This document shows positions 13,858 through 41,127 of a DNA stretch of 64,000 nt, piece after piece (the stretch's first letter is position 1; the number at the start of each line of letters is the position of its first letter). Below the pieces are notes generated by a model, which worked only from the letters and a program-made list of their open reading frames with translations, did not search any database and had not been told where the DNA came from. This DNA is from Numidum massiliense (GTDB taxonomy: Bacteria > Bacillota > Bacilli > Thermoactinomycetales > Novibacillaceae). Both the position numbers and the translations under genes were made by a program. The stretch is taken from assembly GCF_001375555.1 (NCBI RefSeq), contig NZ_CTDZ01000009.1:861758-925757 (forward strand). Direction: 5' to 3'.

Positions 13858-13885
13858 AAAAAGGGACAGCCGACGACGACTGTCC
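13858..13885 (-). terminator. Terminator of the regulator-peptide operon
   Basis: On the minus strand GGACAG pairs with CTGTCC across a 10-base loop, followed by CTTTTTACG. It lies 75 bases past the stop of the peptide gene. Confidence 0.75.
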
Positions 13886-13959: not shown

Positions 13960-14082
13960 TTATTTTTCGTTTACGATTCTCTTTATGTGTGAACCTTCCG
14001 ACGGGCTACCATTTCCGGCTAACGCCGTCAAGGGCATGACTAATAGGGCGACCGCGATGATTGAAAGGACGAGCTTTTTCAC
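13960..14082 (-). CDS. Small exported peptide, candidate quorum-sensing pheromone precursor
   Basis: A 40-codon gene starting with GTG at 14082, four bases after the stop of the HTH-TPR regulator gene. Its GGGAGG ribosome site lies inside that gene's last codons, so translation is probably coupled. Residues 1-23 (MKKLVLSIIAVALLVMPLTA, then LAG) form a clean Sec signal peptide with a TALA-type cleavage site. The remaining 18 or so residues (NGSPSEGSHIKRIVNEK) would be released. Regulator followed by a small exported peptide is the layout of RRNPP systems such as NprR-NprX and PlcR-PapR. The active peptide would be a short C-terminal fragment re-imported by an oligopeptide permease. Function is inferred from context. 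Confidence 0.72.
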   Translation of the reverse strand: MKKLVLSIIAVALLVMPLTALAGNGSPSEGSHIKRIVNEK

Positions 14083-14086
14083 TGTA

Positions 14087-15415
14087 TTACCTCCCGTTAA
14101 TGATCGATTCTACTTGATACATATTTTTGGTTTCCCGCTGCAATGCGTCTTCGTTACCCACTTGTTCGTAGTAATTGGCTAACACGAGGTGAAACTCCTT
14201 TTTTTTGCTGTACAGCATGCTCTGTTCTGCGAGGCGAATACCTTCCTCGCAAATCGCTTTCACTTCGTCGGAGTTTTCCCCTAACGCGATTTTTGCACGA
14301 AGCAACAGAAGCGGTAAGTACTCCGACGTCAATTCCATCTGTTCTTTCAATGCAGCTGCTTTTTCCACATATTCCGTCGCTAGCCCCAATTGATTTGTCG
14401 CGAAGTACACCTCACCGTACGAAAAATAGATCGTGGCGAGAATATTTTTGTCTTTTGCCTTTTGACTCAATTCGTAGGCGAGGTCATAATAAGCTAGCGA
14501 CTGCTCGTACGCTTTGTCGCGGTAATACGTATCCCCTAAATTAAGGTAGAGTAGGCTTCCGATACGCGGATCGGGAAAATGCTGACTAGAGAGATGGATC
14601 GCCTTCTGAAACACGTCAACCGCTTGTGCGTAAAGTTGTTGGTGGGCAACGATGATGCCTTCCAAGTTGTATCCGAGCAGCAACGTCTTGAAGTCCTGAG
14701 TCTGTTCGCATACCTGCTGCGTTTCGATTACGTGCTTGTACGCTTGCGCCTTGCGGTCGAGGTGGTAAAAACAGTTTGCCTTATGGTACGTAAGGCGTCC
14801 CGTAATTTGCGGGCACTCCCTTTCTGCTGATAGCGTCTCGAGTCCTAGATCAGCATATTCGATCGCTTTTTCGTAATCTTGTTCGCCGTAAAACACAGTA
14901 AGCGACTAGTGGTAGTACGCTTCAGCGGCTAATGCGTTTCCCGGATCGGCCACATCGGTTTCGCGTAGGAGACGCAACACTTGCTGGAAGGCGTTTTTGG
15001 CTCGTTCCCATTGGCCTTGCTTACGCAAGACGAAGCCCTTCAAAAGCTGGGTTTTCGTCGCCTCGAGGGGGAAAGAAGACAACGTGTCATCACTTTCTAA
15101 AGCGCTTACTCTTTTACGCGCTTCACCCAGCACATTCACCTCAATTAAGTGTCGCACGACGGCCAGCTGTTGCTGTAGCCGCTTCTGCTCGTCCTCTGTG
15201 CTTTGCAGCATTTGCTTGATCAGATCGTCGGACAGATCGAGTTGCTGGCGAATGTAATGCACCTTTTCACTCGCGAGGTTGTTCGTGATCCCGCGCTCGA
15301 TGTTACTAATCGTCGGCACGGAAATGTGGTCATTAGCCAGATCGCTTAAGGTTAGTCCGAGCTCCTTTCGGCGCTGGCGAATGAGTGATCCGAGGCTGAT
15401 CGGATCAAGATCCAT
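14087..15415 (-). pseudogene. HTH-TPR transcriptional regulator (RRNPP-like) with in-frame amber codon
   Basis: Read through, this frame encodes about 442 residues, close to NprR-type regulators. Residues 5-60 are an XRE helix-turn-helix (LGSLIRQRRKELGLTLSDLA, then VPTISNIERG). Residues 75-440 are degenerate TPR repeats, for example AYYHxSLTVFYGEQDYEKAIEYA and GDTYYRDKAYEQSLAYYDLA. A single TAG at 14908-14906 interrupts the frame after residue 169, exactly at a TPR helix, and the frame is otherwise intact on both sides. It is therefore either a recent pseudogene, a base-call error or an amber-suppressed gene. A GTG at 14896 could restart the TPR part. The start ATG at 15415 follows GGAGGG. 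The peptide gene follows directly. Confidence 0.75.
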
Positions 15416-15433: not shown

Positions 15434-15491
15434 GTCGCGAAGTATATGCAGATATAGCTTCTATTCGACTATTCGACAAAAGCGGTCGAAT
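15434..15491 (-). promoter_or_regulatory. Repeat-rich promoter region of the HTH-TPR regulator
   Basis: ATTCGAC occurs twice in direct orientation near 15463 and 15471 and once inverted as GTCGAAT near 15485. It lies just upstream of the regulator start, and is a plausible site for autoregulation. No firm -10/-35 pair is assigned. Confidence 0.35.
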
Positions 15492-15608
15492 TCCTTCTTC
15501 GGTTTCAAAAATTTTTTCGTATGTATAGCGGAGCCACTGTGACATTGTATGTGTAACATTTCTCTCGAAGGGTTTTAGCAGGAATTTGGAGGGAGAATAT
15601 AGAAAAGG

Positions 15609-17116
15609 AAGACCTAAATAGTACTCCTAACCACCACGAAAGGAGAGGTCTTCCTTGAAAACCATTATACCAGAAATCGCTACTATCTTGGAACAGTCTA
15701 CAGATATGTTGTCGTTTTGGGAAAGCTTACGTATTCGCCTGATGGAAGTGATGGCTGATCTGTTCGGAGAATTTTTGGAGCAGCTCGATCAGATGATGAC
15801 GACGCATTACAAGGAAAAATACGGTTGGAAAAGTGAGCGATTGGACAGCCGGGAGTTCACCAGTTTTTTTGGGACAGTGTCCTATAAACGCCACTTGATG
15901 TACGACCGAAACGGAAACGCACATTACCCTGTCGATGAGGCAATCGGTTTAAAACGCCGTAAAAGATACAGCCCAGACCTTATGATGCTCGGAGCAGAGT
16001 TAGCTGCAGCGCCGGGAATGACCTACCGCCTCGCCTCAGAGGTCACGCAAAAACTTGCCGGTATAACGATCAGCCATACGACGTTTCAGCGCTTAGTAAA
16101 AGAAGCAGGTGAAGCTCAAGCTGTCATGGATGCTGAAAAAAGGGATCGAATTTTTGAGGATACGGTAATTCCTAACTCTCCGTCCGTTAAGCACTTATAT
16201 TGCGAAGCAGATGGCTTATACGTCAAAGGGAGAGGCAAAGGAATAGAGATCAAAAATATGCTTGCCTATACCGGGTGGGAGCAAAACGGACAGCGTGTCT
16301 CGTTAACAGATCGTCACGTCTTTTCTACCGTTGAATCGGTGGATGACTTTTGGGAAATAGGTTATGCAGCGATTCGACATCGTTGGGATCTCTCACATAC
16401 ACATGTGGCGACTAATGCGGATGCGGCTTCATGGATCTCTGAGGAACGCGTTCAAAATACCTTTTCTGAAGCGACATCGGTTGTCCGCCAATTGGATCCT
16501 TTTCACGTAAAGAGGAGTATTCGTCGCGGGTTGAGCCGCCAGCCAAGGCTCATTCCTCAAATTGAAAAGGCAATATCCGAAAAAAATAAGGATAGGTTTA
16601 AAGCGGTGATTGATACGGCACAGGGAAATGCAGAGACGGAGCGAGAGGAAAAGCGTATCGAGAACATGCAGAAGTATCTTGAAGGGCACTGGGAGATCCT
16701 CTGCGACTGGCGTGAGGTTAGTCCAGACGTGCCAAAAAATGCTCGTAGGATGGGATGCATGGAATCGAACCAGAGACGTCTGGCATACCGCATGAAACGT
16801 CGTGGCATGTACTGGAGTGAAGAAGGGGCTCAAGCCATCGCCAAAGTACAACAAGGCGTTACCAATGGGACGTTGAGACAGGCATTATTAACTGTCTGGC
16901 CCAACCGCCAAGTGACACAAAAACTAAAACGCCATGCGAGGCGAATAGGTAAGTCGGATCACATTGGGGTTCAAGTTGGCAGGATCCAAGTAGGTGCCGC
17001 ATCAGCTTCAAGTGCTATTGGGTATTTGGATAAGGTGGTTAATCGCCGTCCTTGAAGAGTTAACTCCTCAAGGGCGGACAACAAGTGAACGTTAGGGAAT
17101 GACATATTTAGGTCTT
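15609..17116 (+). mobile_element. ISLre2 family insertion sequence
   Basis: The 12-bp ends AAGACCTAAATA (15609-15620) and TATTTAGGTCTT (17105-17116) are inverted repeats, with a further partly matching CCTAAC inside. They bracket one ISLre2 transposase gene, giving about 1.5 kb, the usual size. No target duplication is evident in the immediate flanks. At the left end GGAAGACCT and AGGTCTTCC (15607-15615, 15646-15654) can form a hairpin that covers the transposase ribosome site. This would damp translation on read-through transcripts. Confidence 0.8.
15655..17055 (+). CDS. ISLre2 family transposase (UPF0236)
   Basis: A 466-residue protein of near-normal length for ISLre2. Recognisable segments are SREFTSFFGTVSYKRHLM, RRKRYSPDLMMLGAELAA, HLYCEADGLYVKGRGKG, THVATNADAASWI and LDPFHVKRSIRRG. 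Acidic residues in EADG and NADAA probably belong to the catalytic centre. TTG 15655 follows AGGAGAGG. The frame is open throughout and may be active. It sits between the regulator operon and the FMN riboswitch. Confidence 0.9.
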   Translation: MKTIIPEIATILEQSTDMLSFWESLRIRLMEVMADLFGEFLEQLDQMMTTHYKEKYGWKSERLDSREFTSFFGTVSYKRHLMYDRNGNAHYPVDEAIGLKRRKRYSPDLMMLGAELAAAPGMTYRLASEVTQKLAGITISHTTFQRLVKEAGEAQAVMDAEKRDRIFEDTVIPNSPSVKHLYCEADGLYVKGRGKGIEIKNMLAYTGWEQNGQRVSLTDRHVFSTVESVDDFWEIGYAAIRHRWDLSHTHVATNADAASWISEERVQNTFSEATSVVRQLDPFHVKRSIRRGLSRQPRLIPQIEKAISEKNKDRFKAVIDTAQGNAETEREEKRIENMQKYLEGHWEILCDWREVSPDVPKNARRMGCMESNQRRLAYRMKRRGMYWSEEGAQAIAKVQQGVTNGTLRQALLTVWPNRQVTQKLKRHARRIGKSDHIGVQVGRIQVGAASASSAIGYLDKVVNRRP

Positions 17117-17199
17117 TAAATCCTTGATCCTGTAAGGTCGTCGAGTAAAGCTTGACACATACTGTGACATTTCTTTCATGGAAACGAATACGCGTGTTG

Positions 17200-17208: not shown

Positions 17209-17229
17209 AGATTTATTGAATTGAATACA

Positions 17230-17455
17230 ACCTTCGGGGCATGGTGAGATTCCTGACCGGCGGTGATCGCCACAACGGTGGCGTAAGCCCGCGACTCACA
17301 GATCATAAGAGGCGTTTCGACGACTCGACATGCGGTTGACGACGCATTTTCCCCGCAGTTGTTATGCGAGGAAAAAAGGTTGTCGCCAGCAGGTGATCGT
17401 GACTGACTTAGTGTAACTCTAAGGCCGACGGTATAGTCCGGATGGTAGAAGGTGA
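17230..17455 (+). promoter_or_regulatory. FMN riboswitch (RFN element)
   Basis: All conserved blocks are present: CCTTCGGGGCATGGTGAGAT, TTCCTGACCGGCGGTGAT, AAGCCCGCGA, the late AAGGCCGACGGTATAGTCCG block and GGATGGTAGAAGG. FMN binding should favour the terminator at 17509-17540 and shut the rib genes off. The variable stem between the halves (about 17300-17390) is longer than usual. Confidence 0.95.
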
Positions 17456-17508
17456 ACAAGGACTTTGCTATTTTTTTCAAGAAATTAATAGTAAGGTTTA
17501 TTTCACTA

Positions 17509-28451: not shown

Positions 28452-28521
28452 GGAGACAAACTGGATCGGGAAGTAGAAATATTGGCAAAAATGGCCGAAT
28501 GGAAGAGGAGGAATGAACGAA

Positions 28522-28899
28522 ATGGAAAAACTATCTTATAAGCAAAAGAGGAAACCCTTGACTCGAACGATCAAAGCGACCCTCGCCGCGATGGCGCTCA
28601 CGATCGCTTTGGTAGGGGGAGCCGCAGTGCCGGCATATGCTTGGGTGAATCCGGGTTGGCACTCCCAGTACCCGTCGGAAGGAGGACATTGGAGGTACGG
28701 ATTCGTGAACGCTGGGCTCCGTTCCGAGTACAATCACCCGACGAAGGTTCACGGCTCGACGGTGTATAAGCTCATCGACGGCAAGGTGGTAAAGAAAAAC
28801 AGGAGCTTAGACACGGCTAAGGGGAGATACTCTCACGCCTATGTCGGAACCTTAAACTCGCCGGGTCTCAAGGGTCGTTACTTCTACCGTACCAATTGA
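28522..28899 (+). CDS. Lactococcin 972-family bacteriocin precursor
   Basis: A 125-residue secreted protein. Residues 1-40 form a long Sec signal peptide: [14 protein letters not shown], hydrophobic [12 protein letters not shown], cleavage after PAYA. The mature part has the lactococcin 972 pattern: EGGHWRYGF, then [26 protein letters not shown] and a C-terminal GRYFYRTN. Lactococcin 972 binds lipid II and blocks septum formation in related Gram-positives; activity here is inferred. ATG 28522 is preferred over 28513, because in the duplicated remnant at 29469 only this second ATG stays open. AGGAGG lies upstream. Confidence 0.85.
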
Positions 28900-29468: not shown

Positions 29469-29585
29469 ATGAAACAACTTTTTTATAGGCAAAAGAGGGA
29501 GCCCTTGACTGGAACAATCAAAGCGACGTTTGACGCGTTGGCGATGTCCTCAGTAGACGTCGCATGTGATCGGTGGTGCAGATAG
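29469..29585 (+). pseudogene. Truncated second lactococcin 972-type leader
   Basis: The frame reads MKQLFYRQKREPLTGTIKAT, then FDALAM, clearly homologous to the signal-peptide start of the bacteriocin at 28522. The upstream GAGGAGGAATGA is conserved too. From about 29547 it changes into the 3' tail of the membrane-protein gene family and stops at TAG 29583. It is therefore a recombination-fused remnant, with the ABC ATPase gene beginning at its end. Confidence 0.75.
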
Positions 29586-29623
29586 TGATTGAAGCCCAGG
29601 ACATTTCAGTAGCAATTGGTGGG
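29550..29623 (+). repeat. 74-bp direct repeat, copy 1
   Basis: By hand alignment 64 of 74 bases match 32863-32936, without gaps. It contains the last codons of a membrane-protein gene and the first 13 codons of the ABC ATPase. Confidence 0.85.
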
Positions 29624-30277
29624 CGGACAGTGCTTGATGGTGAAACCCTTCGTTGCGCGCCTGGGATGATGACAGCCCTCATTGGTCCGAGTGGATGTGG
29701 GAAGACCACACTCTTGCACTGCCTCGGGCTGTTGCTCCCAGTGGAACAGGGGCGCATCTTGATCGACGGAGCCGATGTGACACGTTACGGTACTGCGGCA
29801 CGACGTCGGTTCTGGCGTGATCGCGCGGCGTTCGTCCTACAGGATTACGGCATCATGGATGAGGAGTCGGTTGCCTTCAATGTCACCATGCAGGCGAGCG
29901 TCCTCGGACGACGCGTCACGGGAAACCGGGAGCGGTTGGCGCAGGCGCTCGAGCAGACAGGTCTCGAGGAGCGAGAAGGTGAGTTGGCCAGCCACCTGAG
30001 TGGAGGCGAGAAGCAGCGACTCGCACTGGCTCGTGCCATCTACAAGGACGCTGCGATCCTGTACGCCGACGAACCCACTGCCTCCCTTGACGCAACCAAC
30101 CGGCGAAAGGTCATCGACCTGTTTGCGGACTTCGCCGCGCGTGGCCGCACGGTTATTGTGTCGACGCACGACTCCGAGATGATCAACGCGTGTGACGCCC
30201 GGCATGAAGTAGGTTCGAACAGCCCATCACACTATTCGTCGACGAGTGATCTCGCTAGCCTAGGAGGATCCTCATGA
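29585..30277 (+). CDS. Bacteriocin-associated ABC transporter ATPase (lactococcin 972 group)
   Basis: A 230-residue ATPase. Walker A is GPSGCGKTTLLH, signature LSGGEKQRLALARAIY, Walker B ILYADEPTASLD, switch His STHD. It resembles the ATPases found with lactococcin 972-like genes, thought to export or give immunity together with the large membrane protein. GTG 29585 is favoured because it and its counterpart at 32898 are conserved in the direct repeat and give a MIE-type start; GTG 29576 is possible. The ribosome site is weak. Codon use is richer in GC than in the flanks and looks actinobacterial. The stop overlaps the next ATG by four bases. Confidence 0.85.
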   Translation: MIEAQDISVAIGGRTVLDGETLRCAPGMMTALIGPSGCGKTTLLHCLGLLLPVEQGRILIDGADVTRYGTAARRRFWRDRAAFVLQDYGIMDEESVAFNVTMQASVLGRRVTGNRERLAQALEQTGLEEREGELASHLSGGEKQRLALARAIYKDAAILYADEPTASLDATNRRKVIDLFADFAARGRTVIVSTHDSEMINACDARHEVGSNSPSHYSSTSDLASLGGSS

Positions 30278-30630
30278 AGTTGACATCTAAGATTATTATC
30301 GGTGTCGTTGTCGTCTTACTACTGGTAGCGGGCGTTGCGTTCCTAAACGGCTGGATCCCAGTATCAACGAGGGACACGCATCCGCCGTGCGACAAGCTGC
30401 CGACCGTAGCGGAGGCCACTGCGGCGCTTGCCAGCCATCAAGGCCTCGCCGAGGAGATCAAAGCGCTAGGTGATGGTATTGCGGTCGAAGTGGGAAAGCC
30501 GTGTCCCGATGACCAGGACCGAGGCTTAGTCACGGTAAGCTATCGTTCGACATCAGAGCGCGACGCTATCTCCGACCTACTCAGCAACCGCGACGGGTTT
30601 GGGGTTCCGGTTCAGTTAGTGAAGCGCTAA
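30274..30630 (+). CDS. Small membrane-anchored protein of the bacteriocin island
   Basis: A 118-residue protein with one N-terminal membrane segment (IIIGVVVVLLLVAGVAFL) and an extracytoplasmic part with two Cys (HPPCDKL, GKPCPDD). ATG 30274 overlaps the ATPase stop as ATGA, with AGGAGG upstream, so the two are cotranslated. I do not recognise the family. An immunity or export accessory role is plausible from position only. The base composition matches the GC-rich block. Confidence 0.65.
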   Translation: MKLTSKIIIGVVVVLLLVAGVAFLNGWIPVSTRDTHPPCDKLPTVAEATAALASHQGLAEEIKALGDGIAVEVGKPCPDDQDRGLVTVSYRSTSERDAISDLLSNRDGFGVPVQLVKR

Positions 30631-30675
30631 CGCGGATTTTCGCACATCCGGTTCGCGCAACCGTTGTCTGCCTCT

Positions 30676-30789
30676 TGTGTGCAGGGCTGGCTCGCCGATG
30701 GCGTCAAGCCGAACCTAGCGCCGACCACCTAAGCCAAGTACGAGGCGCTGTTTCGGCTATACATCATGGCGCCTTTGGCGAATGATCGG
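30676..30789 (+). pseudogene. Remnant of a tyrosine recombinase (integrase) N-terminal domain
   Basis: One frame reads QGWLADGVKPNLAPTT, a stop (TAA 30730), then AKYEALFRLYIMAPLA. This is the core-binding SAM-like domain of actinobacterial phage-type integrases, whose pattern is W-L-x-x-G-V-x-P-x-L-x-P-T-T-x-x-K-Y-E. No catalytic domain remains. It lies inside the GC-rich block. Confidence 0.5.
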
Positions 30790-30810
30790 TGGGCGGCGAC
30801 GCCGGGTCTC

Positions 30811-30854
30811 GGCGATACTCGTTGCCGTCGCCGGGGCTTAGCATGGTGAGTTCC
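30811..30854 (+). repeat. Spacer repeat before the membrane-protein gene, copy 2
   Basis: GGCGATACTCG, then CGTCGCCGGGGCTTAGCATGG and TGAGTTCC align with 28904-28951, given a short gap. Confidence 0.7.
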
Positions 30855-30878
30855 AGATAAATATTGGAGGGTTCGCTT

Positions 30879-32882
30879 GTGTATAAGCGTATTATAGTAG
30901 CTGTCGCGGGCGCGTTGTTTGCACTACTTGCGCTGCTGGCAGCGATCATCACTGATCTATATGATCGAGACTTTCCGCAGGCTATTGGTGTCGAGAGCAG
31001 GCTTAGCCTCGACTTTAGCGAATCGGGCTTGTCCGTCACCGAAGCGTTTGCGAAGCTGGAGGAGCTCGATGCGCGCTGGGATCTCGGTCTGGTCAAGGTC
31101 GCGCCGGACCTTGATCGCGACGGCGATGGCCAGATCTTCGTCGCACTTAACGATGGCGATCTGCCCGCCGAATTTACGTGGTTCGGCGGCGATGGTGTCG
31201 GCAAGATCGTTGGCAAGGATCGACTTGCCAGCTCCTATCCCGATGGATTCTATCTTGTAACCGGCGAAAAAACCCACTTGGGCAAGTTCGCTGACACGCT
31301 AAAAAGTGCCGGTGTGAAGATTGGCCGGGGGGATGCGTCCATTTTTGACAGTCTTGAAATCGTGGTGTGGGAAAGAGGATTTGCTGCCGCCGTTCTTGCG
31401 GCGCTGGCGCTAATCGCTGCGCTGGCACTGTTCTGGTTGTCGCTGAGGGCGCGTGGGCGCGCCCTTCGAGTTCTCGGGGGGTGCCCGACCGTGCGGATCC
31501 AGGTGCAGGACTTGGCCGGGTTCGGGGGTGCGCTGCTCGTTTCGGCGGGCGTCGTGGCGCTGGCTGCGGCGGGCTATGTGGGGGTGTTTCATGGCTGGAT
31601 GTACGTCGGTACCTTCCTCAAGGCGCTGGTCAGCCTAGAGGCCGCTGTCATCGCCGTATCTTTAATCACTGCGCTTATCATGTCAGCTTCAGCTTGGCCG
31701 AGCGCTACCATGCTCGCCACCAGACAACCCGCGGTAAAGAGCCTGCGTTCGGCGGCGATCGTGATCAAGGCGCTAACGTTCCTCTTAGTGGTGGCCGCGG
31801 CTGGGCCTGCTTGGTCTGCATACAAACACTCATCCGCGATGGCTGCTGAAATGGCGCAGTGGAAGCAACTCAAAGACCAGGTCGCCCTTGTGTTCGCGGT
31901 AGAAGGCGATGACGGGGGTGACGGGGATGGAGAGGATGACGGAATGGAGCGCGTAGAGTCGCAGATTGGCGAGCTAGTGAAGGATGCGGAATCGCGTGAT
32001 GCGGCCGCGCTTTCCTACACTTACACTAAAGAAATGCAAACGCCGGTCGATTTTGGAAAGTATTCGGCCGTATCCTTCGTGAACCAGCGTTGGCTCGATC
32101 TGGTGACAAGGGGTGCACCACAGCCGGCGGTCACATCGGTGCCTGGCCACAGCATTCCAGAAGGGCTTGTTAGAATGGTTCGAGAAGAAGCTGAGCTCTT
32201 GTCCAGGGGAGAGCTTTCCGAGGAGCTGTTCGCACAGTTCCAGTTCTTGCAGCCGATCGACGGGTTCCAGATCCCGGTGGCCCAAGGAGGGGGGGGCACA
32301 AACCTTCACTTTGCGGACGATGTCCTGCTCGTCGTCGTCCCTTCGGTCTACGACACCTATGACGATTTTAACTTGACATCCTTAGCCTCGAGCAGCAACA
32401 TCGTGTTCACCGATGTGACTGCTACGAAGCAATTGCTAAAACGACACGGTCTCGACGTGCCGGGGCTGCGCGATCGTGGCCTCAAAGGCGAACTAAATGT
32501 TGTCTACGTGGCCGAAGAGGGGATGCTCCTCGCGCAGTTCGCAGCGTACGTGGTGTGGTTGCAGAATCTTGCGCTAGTTGCATTAGTTGTTGCTTTCACT
32601 GTCGCTGCTGCAATCAGTGCGTTGATCACCGCGCTGCTGCAGGCGAAGCGTGACTTCCCACTGCGAGTGGCAGGCCGGTCATGGGTGCGGATCCTCCAGA
32701 GCCGCGTGGCCAAGGAATTGCTTGTCGGAGCCGGTATCGTAGGCGTCGTGGTGCTGTTCCAAAGGCCTGATGAGATGGGTGCCATACTCGTGGCCGCAGC
32801 GTATGGGTTGCTTGTTGTGCCGCTAAGCCATCTGTTTACTGCGCGTTGGTGTTTCGACGGCGTCAGTAGACGTCGCATTTGA
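30879..32882 (+). CDS. Bacteriocin-associated integral membrane protein (lactococcin 972 immunity/transport type)
   Basis: A 667-residue protein with an N-terminal membrane anchor (IIVAVAGALFALLALLAAII) and an extracellular domain to about residue 160. Four membrane segments follow in 165-320, then a second extracellular domain with an acidic stretch (GDDGGDGDGEDDG), and three membrane segments near the C-terminus. This is the layout of the large proteins encoded with lactococcin 972-like bacteriocins, proposed to act in immunity or export with the ATPase. GTG 30879 lies seven bases after GGAGGG; the longer TTG start at 30864 lacks a ribosome site. Composition matches the ATPase, pointing to joint transfer. 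Confidence 0.82.
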   Translation: MYKRIIVAVAGALFALLALLAAIITDLYDRDFPQAIGVESRLSLDFSESGLSVTEAFAKLEELDARWDLGLVKVAPDLDRDGDGQIFVALNDGDLPAEFTWFGGDGVGKIVGKDRLASSYPDGFYLVTGEKTHLGKFADTLKSAGVKIGRGDASIFDSLEIVVWERGFAAAVLAALALIAALALFWLSLRARGRALRVLGGCPTVRIQVQDLAGFGGALLVSAGVVALAAAGYVGVFHGWMYVGTFLKALVSLEAAVIAVSLITALIMSASAWPSATMLATRQPAVKSLRSAAIVIKALTFLLVVAAAGPAWSAYKHSSAMAAEMAQWKQLKDQVALVFAVEGDDGGDGDGEDDGMERVESQIGELVKDAESRDAAALSYTYTKEMQTPVDFGKYSAVSFVNQRWLDLVTRGAPQPAVTSVPGHSIPEGLVRMVREEAELLSRGELSEELFAQFQFLQPIDGFQIPVAQGGGGTNLHFADDVLLVVVPSVYDTYDDFNLTSLASSSNIVFTDVTATKQLLKRHGLDVPGLRDRGLKGELNVVYVAEEGMLLAQFAAYVVWLQNLALVALVVAFTVAAAISALITALLQAKRDFPLRVAGRSWVRILQSRVAKELLVGAGIVGVVVLFQRPDEMGAILVAAAYGLLVVPLSHLFTARWCFDGVSRRRI

Positions 32883-39606: not shown

Positions 39607-41127
39607 CTAACTTAACGGTTCCGCCGTCCTTTTTTTTGCGGGTGCGCGGTTAGTCCGCTTTACCCATCCCCATAAAAAGCCGAGCGCACCGCCGACGAGT
39701 GCTGGGAGAAGCCAGCCCATCCCTTGGGTGTATAGCGGTAAGTGAATGTACACACCTGTGAGTGTGTCCGCCCCTGTCTGCAGCTTGTCCAACCCAATAT
39801 TGAACCATTTCTCGACTACCGACGCCGCCGATTCCGTCGCGGCAGTCGGCCGTTCGATGGCGTTGAAGCCATCGACGAAGCTAATGGCACCCGTAAAAAG
39901 GAGTGCGCCGCGATACACGTGTGGGCAACTGCGAATCGCGCGTGGCGCAAGCCCTAAGATAATAATGACGATCGCCAGCGGGTAAATCGCCACTAAGACG
40001 GGATAAGAAATCGCAATAATATTCGTCAGTCCGAGGTTGGCGATGGCAAAGCCGACGAGTGTACACAGTATGGCCAGCCGTTTGTACGTCAATCGCGACG
40101 AAAATCGCGTAAAATACATACTTACTGCGGTGACGAGCCCGACTGACGTCGTCAAACAGGCGACCGTGACCGCCACCCCGAGTAACAGTAGGCCAGCCGT
40201 CCCAAATAGTTCGTAACAAATAGCAGCTAAAAGTTGTCCGCCGTTGTCCATCGCCCCAAGCGATTGGCTCGTCGCGCCGAGGTAGGCGAGCGCCAAATAG
40301 ACGGCTGCCAGCGCGAGGCCGGCGACGACTCCCGCGCGAATCACTGCGCGGCGCGCCCCGTTGCTGTCAGTTACCCGGTAGGCGAGCGCCAAATAGACGG
40401 CTGCCAGCGCGAGGCCGGCGACGACTCCCGCGCGAATCACTGCGCGGCGCGCCCCGTTGCTGTCAGTTACCCCTTTTGCCTTGAACGCGTTTATAGCGAC
40501 AATGCCGAAAGCGAGGCCAGCCAGTGCATCTAACGTTAAATAGCCTTCGGTAAATCCTTTAAAAAACGATGCCTCTAAGTAGTCGCCGCTCGCCGTGCCG
40601 GGGAGGCCGATCGGTTGCAGCCACCCTTTGACGAACAGGGCGAACACGACGAACAGTAAAGTGGGCGTCAATATTTTGCCAATTCGGTCTACAAGTTTCG
40701 TCGGATTTAAACTGAGCCACAGTGTTAAAGTAAAATAACCGATCGTATAAAGTAGTAACGGCCAGCTTTCCGCTTGCAAGCTGTCGGGCAAAAAGGGGAT
40801 GACCCCGATCTCGTAGCCGACACTCGCCGTGCGCGGGATGGCGAATAATGGCCCAATCGCCAAGTAAGTGACGATTGAAAAGACGAGACCAAAGACGCGG
40901 TGGGCGCGCCCCGCAATGTCTTCCATACTCCCGTTGAGGACGACGGCAATGACGCCCATCATCGGCAGTCCGATGCCAGTTATTAAGAAGCCGAGCATCG
41001 CCGTCCACGTCTGTGTGCCTGCAGTTTGTGCGAGTGCAGGTGGAAAAATCAAGTTGCCCGCTCCGAAAAAAAGTGCAAATAACATGAAGCCGATCGTCAC
41101 TATGTCTCGTGTGCGCAATGGTTGCAT
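39607..41127 (-). CDS. brnQ: Branched-chain amino acid transporter BrnQ with a 32-residue internal duplication
   Basis: A 506-residue LIVCS-family carrier that imports Leu, Ile and Val with Na+ or H+. Family marks are IGFMLFALFFGAGNLIFPP at the N-terminus, PRTASVGYEIGVIPF and TTSVGLVTAVSMYFTRFS. A perfect 96-bp tandem duplication repeats VTDSNGARRAVIRAG plus the following membrane helix VVAGLALAAVYLALAY. This adds one membrane segment and would invert the topology after it, unless the extra helix is accommodated. Without it the length is 474, normal for BrnQ. No good ribosome site is seen before ATG 41127. Confidence 0.88.
   Translation of the reverse strand: MQPLRTRDIVTIGFMLFALFFGAGNLIFPPALAQTAGTQTWTAMLGFLITGIGLPMMGVIAVVLNGSMEDIAGRAHRVFGLVFSIVTYLAIGPLFAIPRTASVGYEIGVIPFLPDSLQAESWPLLLYTIGYFTLTLWLSLNPTKLVDRIGKILTPTLLFVVFALFVKGWLQPIGLPGTASGDYLEASFFKGFTEGYLTLDALAGLAFGIVAINAFKAKGVTDSNGARRAVIRAGVVAGLALAAVYLALAYRVTDSNGARRAVIRAGVVAGLALAAVYLALAYLGATSQSLGAMDNGGQLLAAICYELFGTAGLLLLGVAVTVACLTTSVGLVTAVSMYFTRFSSRLTYKRLAILCTLVGFAIANLGLTNIIAISYPVLVAIYPLAIVIIILGLAPRAIRSCPHVYRGALLFTGAISFVDGFNAIERPTAATESAASVVEKWFNIGLDKLQTGADTLTGVYIHLPLYTQGMGWLLPALVGGALGFLWGWVKRTNRAPAKKRTAEPLS
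40281..40472 (-). repeat. Perfect 2 x 96-bp tandem duplication inside brnQ
   Basis: Units 40281-40376 and 40377-40472 are identical, which implies a very recent, in-frame event (32 codons) or an assembly artefact. Confidence 0.92.

Follow-up and report, generated by a model that had tools for sequence, protein, structure and literature searches.

A probable RRNPP-type quorum-sensing cassette from a multi-copy family in Numidum massiliense, in which the receptor of one copy appears cut and its signal gene kept

Organization of the cassette

The window, by which we mean the whole stretch of 64,000 nucleotides that was analysed, carries what is very probably a chromosomal quorum-sensing cassette of the RRNPP type that is NprR-NprX-like in anatomy and is part of a family that expanded within this lineage, with about 19 loci in this genome of the order Thermoactinomycetales; in this copy, L001, the receptor is cut at codon 170 and the signal gene is kept. 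Judged from sequence, three general features of RRNPP systems are present, namely a C-terminal TPR domain, an adjacent gene for an exported propeptide, and a conserved leader combined with a diversified signal region. The features of the locus are listed below.

15415-14087, minus strand: frame of the receptor in the receptor and propeptide cassette, with ATG at 15415 and TAA at 14087-14089
15500..15519, minus strand: A-tract/T-tract CGAAAAAATTTTTGAAACCG immediately 5' of the promoter, which may be UP-element-like or an operator
15471..15495, minus strand: sigma-H-type promoter AGGAAT-N12-GTCGAAT, 56 nt 5' of the receptor start codon
14906..15415, minus strand: receptor part 1, XRE HTH and beginning of the TPR region, ATG and 169 codons, with the TAG at 14906-14908 as codon 170
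14087..14905, minus strand: rest of the receptor frame, codons 171-442 followed by TAA, which covers most of the TPR array and is free of further lesions
14090-14095, minus strand: Shine-Dalgarno sequence GGGAGG of the propeptide gene, within the final receptor codons
13960..14082, minus strand: propeptide (pro-pheromone) gene, GTG, 40 codons and TAA, with 12 family members in the genome
14017..14082, minus strand: signal-peptide part MKKLVLSIIAVALLVMPLTALA, 22 codons, of equal length in 12/12 family members
13990..14013, minus strand: candidate pheromone core, approximately NGSPSEGS, with the conserved Pro at tail position +5, proposed from that Pro and from Pro-centred units in relatives
13864..13885, minus strand: intrinsic-terminator-like hairpin, 9-bp stem followed by CTTTTT
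15547..17162, plus strand: insertion sequence outside the cassette, with an ISLre2-family transposase at 15655-17055; its 1,616 bp recur unchanged in two further copies elsewhere in the genome

An earlier note on this DNA had placed a GTG-started gene of 40 codons four bases past the receptor stop, with a strong ribosome site before it and a terminator after it, and this gene order is confirmed: the gene lies on the minus strand at 14082..13960, its GTG is separated from the receptor TAA by 4 bases, GGGAGG stands at the expected place, and a terminator-like hairpin with a T run is found at 13885-13864. The two genes thus form one apparent transcription unit. The same note had described an XRE HTH plus TPR frame, and as to the domains this stands, as the Pfam families HTH_3 and TPR match the receptor above cut-off, but the frame is not open, the TAG at codon 170 having been overlooked. 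Under translation table 11 this in-frame TAG leaves an HTH ORF of 169 aa and a separate TPR ORF of 269 aa, which read mechanically begins at GTG 14896 (14896-14087). The edge of the insertion sequence lies about 50 bp 5' of the cassette promoter.

The receptor family in the genome

When the 3.76-Mb genome was searched with the receptor, 21 matching stretches were found at about 19 loci, and the cassette, earlier taken for a lone new signal pair, is actually one member of this paralogous set. The family peptide gene is present at 12 of the receptor loci. An intact receptor is accompanied by a canonical peptide gene at eight loci (L003, L004, L005, L006, L007, L008, L009, and L014) and by an atypical short ORF at L016; L010 and L011 have an intact receptor and no peptide gene, and at L015 the receptor is intact and the peptide gene is disrupted. 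In L001 and L002 there is a stop in the receptor and the peptide gene is kept, that of L002 starting with CTG. L013 and L018 are receptor fragments, each with an intact peptide gene, and L012, L017, L019, and L020/L021 are fragments.

The pairing of receptor and peptide gene was examined by a scan for exported ORFs of 30-70 aa with a ribosome site that begin at most 30 nt past the stop of ORFs of at least 200 aa, and it covered 121 such ORFs in the window and in 14 other stretches of the genome. Ten of the 121 had an exported ORF downstream and all 10 belong to the receptor family, compared to 0 of the 111 others, and the pairing is therefore far beyond chance. The earlier note had asked whether a small signal-peptide gene with a variable tail stands behind related receptors, and this holds for most homologs in the genome. 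Its assignment to the RRNPP type is likewise supported by the fact that the paralogous receptors mostly precede a signal-peptide gene whose leader is conserved and whose tail is variable.

In the tandem pairs L007/L008 and L002/L004 the DNA is 89-100% identical from the promoter region through the first 380-470 or so coding bases, and beyond this 5' half, in the TPR part and the peptide, identity is mostly 56-89%. This pattern is consistent with a 5' half that was duplicated or converted and a sensing half that diverged. When 51 receptors were placed in a tree, nine of this genome formed a supported clade (100/99) that excludes the sister genus, and the window copy paired with L006 (95/79). 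Among nine paralogs of this genome, variability is lowest in the HTH (residues 1-60), with an entropy of 0.43 compared to about 1.0 in the TPR array. The variable TPR columns of this clade are not concentrated in the A helices, and for this reason we propose no specificity residues. A search beside the cassettes for a conserved target gene, whether Spo0E or another, found none. A possible account, which we put forward tentatively and would sooner expect to fail than to hold, is that the repertoire grows within the genome by duplication in which the promoter, the HTH, and the N-terminal half are kept (89-100% DNA identity) and the TPR half and the peptide diverge, which would give many private signals acting on the same DNA target, with some copies losing the receptor, as in the window, or the signal, as in L010 and L011.

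The locus L018/L019 (G000:C9:186.5-187.1 kb) is split and rearranged, with an HTH fragment and a sigma-H-type promoter on one strand and the receptor end and an intact peptide gene on the opposite strand, and the tail of this peptide has an internal near-repeat, DRTPPGHGTQV / DDMTPPATKHSSHV. The two other identical copies of the ISLre2-type insertion sequence of the window are found near 1,693-1,700 kb, where they flank the receptor remnant L020/L021.

Receptor fold and relatives in the order

An AlphaFold2 model of the receptor protein read through the stop, made from a 51-row alignment of family proteins, had a pLDDT of 92 and a pTM of 0.84. In a VIA fold comparison the best chain was apo NprR (5dbk; Z 29.9 over 353 residues), followed by RapJ with peptide (Z 28.5) and RapF with its peptide (Z 28.2). 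The matches to NprR and to the peptide-bound Rap proteins span 340-356 residues at Z 28-30, which is true of the read-through frame that the TAG cuts here. Several unrelated TPR proteins (APC subunits, LGN) come close, with scores of 27-28, and the fold therefore supports membership of the RRNPP family but cannot prove it alone. The family profile matches NprR (6e-11) and RapF (3.5e-10) with similar E-values.

In a search of 399 genomes of the class, profile matches with E <= 1e-18 were found in all 38 genomes of the order, this genome included, and in one of the approximately 360 others, where the match was partial. An origin from a mobile element finds no support, as no full-length relative is present in the plasmid records or among the viral contigs. 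Across the order, 29-30 of 68 receptors directly precede an exported propeptide, which mostly ends in a Pro-centred unit that is sometimes repeated in tandem, and in 38 of the 68 an exported peptide ORF was absent by the filter used. The question raised earlier, whether a small gene always follows related regulators, is thus answered mostly in the affirmative within the genome, but about half of the relatives in the order have none by this filter. Orphan receptors are known in other RRNPP families (PMC7425212, PMC9765709).

In the propeptides of relatives the tandem unit is SAFPGPT in L121 (about seven copies), QSEPGGL in L058 (four copies), NSEPGGL in L133 (three copies), and NPGEY in L056; taken together, the propeptides of L121, L123, L133, and L119 each repeat a single short unit in tandem (SAFPGPT, NSEPGGL, IKLDSDPRPA). 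In G001, a genome of the same family as that of the window, L084:1369-3051 (+) encodes a 366-aa TPR protein that matches TPR families only, with no recognised HTH, and after it a 170-aa exported protein with about 11 tandem copies of ETAKIMVPGPHGI / EKPKILVPGPHGI. The repeat protein is likely a poly-pheromone precursor, and the two genes adjoin an HTH-TPR pair. At L071 and L144, leaderless minigenes of 14 codons with strong ribosome sites, read by eye, are located just downstream of receptor genes (MSRQVRLSDDPPGG and MALIIVQHTEPPGT), and they resemble bare pheromones that have no signal peptide.

The propeptide and its likely active part

The propeptide of the window consists of the leader MKKLVLSIIAVALLVMPLTALA, a signal peptide of the Sec type, followed by the tail GNGSPSEGSHIKRIVNEK. 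In the 12 propeptides of the family the 22-residue leader has a mean identity of 61% and ends in an A-x-A-like site, whereas the tails, which are 16-35 residues long, have about 20% identity. In a nucleotide comparison pN/pS was 0.38 for the leader and 0.86 for the tail, values that are near saturation and show the contrast but do not prove positive selection. Between L003 and L013 there is no amino-acid change at all in the leader and the pN of the tail is 0.52. A Pro is found at tail position 5, counted from the predicted signal-peptidase site, in 11 of the 12 propeptides and at position 6 in the remaining one, and the last residue of the tail is Lys in all 12.

The small gene could be thought to encode a secreted antimicrobial or membrane-active peptide under the control of the adjacent HTH protein, as the product is small and exported, its gene adjoins that of a regulator, and no peptide family was matched. 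This we regard as very improbable because the tails are short (16-35 aa) and hydrophilic and diversify among paralogs with the leader kept, the regulator has the peptide-receptor fold of NprR and Rap, and the relatives carry short units in tandem as pheromone precursors do. With the gene read as a pheromone gene, the question is which part of the tail is active. The earlier note had favoured the extreme C-terminal octapeptide IKRIVNEK, and in favour of it are the invariant C-terminal Lys of the 12 members and the C-terminal position of most known RRNPP pheromones (PMC10075063) and likewise of the apparent ones of many relatives in the order. We nevertheless consider it unlikely. The end of the tail has no shared feature beyond the last Lys, compared to the Pro at +5 in nearly every member, and the distance from this Pro to the end differs among paralogs. 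Furthermore, in the closest structural analogue the active part of NprX is central in the C-terminal region of its propeptide, the pheromone being taken from the middle of that region (PMC4147580). Tandem repeats probably mark the unit that is read as the signal. Since the Pro at +5 is conserved and the repeated units of the relatives are Pro-centred, the pheromone of the window is more likely to lie around NGSPSEGS (13990-14013), itself Pro-centred, than to be IKRIVNEK.

Promoter and proposed mechanism

A simple sigma-70 scan of the minus strand gave no useful promoter, and the sigma-H reading was derived by comparing the DNA ahead of the paralogs. What the receptors of this genome have in common upstream is an A-tract/T-tract followed by AGGAATT and, past a spacer, by GTCGAAT or GTAGAAT, which is the form of the sigma-H promoter of Bacillus; this sigma-H-type promoter is present upstream of the window copy and of most paralogs, and an A5-6/T3-7 block like that of the window precedes most paralogs. 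The pattern AGGAWTN10-14GTNGAAT has 20 matches in the genome compared to 4 for the reversed control, and 10 of the 20 are directly upstream of family receptors, including that of the window copy (15471-15495). One further match serves as an internal positive control, as it precedes a spoVG-like gene, presumably spoVG since its product begins like SpoVG, and the SpoVG gene is a classical sigma-H target. The genome has a gene for sigma-H and encodes oligopeptide-binding proteins. Promoters of the sigma-H type drive nprX and most phr genes in Bacillus (PMC4147580).

We propose that sigma-H would transcribe the receptor-peptide pair at entry to stationary phase and that the propeptide would then leave the cell and be trimmed to a short peptide centred on Pro. 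The trimmed peptide would be re-imported by the oligopeptide permease and would bind its own receptor on the concave face of the TPR domain, which would change the DNA binding of the near-invariant HTH, and the HTH would control a regulon.

Comparison with known systems

The cassette resembles NprR-NprX of the Bacillus cereus group in that an HTH is followed by a TPR array and the receptor gene is followed by a gene for an exported propeptide of about 40 aa; NprR is also the best structural match of the family receptor, and the active NprX peptide, SKPDIVG, is internal in the tail and has a central Pro (PMC4147580, PMC5641580). Both have a sigma-H promoter, which in that system stands in front of nprX and here before the receptor. 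Unlike NprR-NprX, the family is large and multi-copy and has no adjacent protease gene of the nprA type, and the sequences are distant, with about 14% identity in the structural alignment. AloR-AloP of the Paenibacillaceae (PMC7425212) is similar in having many paralogous pairs of HTH-TPR receptor and exported peptide per genome, as well as some orphan receptors and degenerate peptides. It differs in host order and from the Pro-centred core seen here, and its frequent but not universal Spo0E-like neighbour is not matched, as the two Spo0E-like genes of this genome are not near any family locus. In the profile search of the class, strong matches beyond the order were nearly absent, which makes a close relationship to AloR less likely.

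With Rap-Phr of Bacillus the family shares the TPR peptide-receptor fold, the downstream exported peptide, sigma-H-driven expression of the peptide, and many copies per genome, but Rap has no DNA-binding HTH and the family receptor has an N-terminal HTH_3, and it is therefore not a Rap. Horizontal transfer is reported as the main source of the Rap-Phr copies of Bacillus (PMC5199041), whereas the genome-specific supported clade and the tandem pairs of this family suggest duplication. The candidate clusters of RRNPP_detector have an equal two-gene signature across Firmicutes, and because the Thermoactinomycetaceae are among the families for which candidate RRNPP systems close to biosynthetic clusters have been listed (PMC10075063), we rank the cassette within the known RRNPP kind. 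The genome would thus have about a dozen receptor-pheromone pairs with a near-identical DNA-binding domain and promoter type and different peptides. Such a series of paralogs would help to decipher the specificity code of RRNPP receptors and to learn how private channels arise by duplication, as opposed to the horizontal transfer reported for Rap-Phr.

The interrupted receptor of the window copy

At codon 170 the 11 paralogs have TTG in nine, TTA in one, and TGG in one, that is Leu in 10 of 11, and a single T-to-A change (TTG to TAG) would explain the stop of the window copy. An unusual reading of TAG was ruled out, as TAG is the stop codon of other family genes and the codon is for Leu in 10 of the 11 paralogs. 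Past the stop, pN/pS of the window copy is 0.37 compared to 0.29-0.37 in nine sister copies, and no second lesion was found in the 270 codons that follow the TAG in the receptor frame. With constraint past the stop equal to that of the sister copies and the frame otherwise undamaged, the stop is either recent or an assembly error.

An error of sequencing or assembly would mean that the locus encodes a normal full-length receptor and its peptide, and what favours it is that a single base is changed in an otherwise clean and constrained frame. It is nonetheless improbable, as the stop lies in a 3.6 Mb contig of an assembly rated 100% complete, at a site with no sign of poor quality, and sister loci also carry stops and truncations. 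What must be taken more seriously, with a chance that we put a little short of even, is that the window copy is a dead remnant in which both genes are without a role and decay has merely not yet reached the peptide gene. The in-frame TAG and the recent insertion about 50 bp 5' of the promoter of an element whose copies are 100% identical point in this direction, and so does the visible decay of other family loci (L002, with a stop near the C-terminus, and the fragments L012, L013, L017, L018/L019, and L020/L021). Against this, the promoter, the Shine-Dalgarno sequence, the leader, the P and K of the tail, and the terminator are all intact, and over the 270 codons past the stop the frame is as constrained as that of intact copies and undamaged. 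This possibility concerns the present state of the window copy only and is compatible with the family being an RRNPP cassette. As the sequence stands, the receptor of the window should be cut and its signal gene intact, unless the TAG is an assembly error or is read through. The locus would then make a signal and have no full-length receiver of its own, and the window copy resembles a signal gene that has outlived its receptor.

Other features of the window

An FMN riboswitch is located at 17226-17457 (+), ahead of a riboflavin gene cluster. A gene for a bacteriocin of the Lactococcin-972 family at 28513-28899 (+) is followed by genes for an ABC ATPase and a large membrane protein (29573-32882). 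A perfect direct duplication of 96 bp (40281-40472) lies in a branched-chain amino-acid transporter gene (39607-41127), to which it adds 32 residues in frame.
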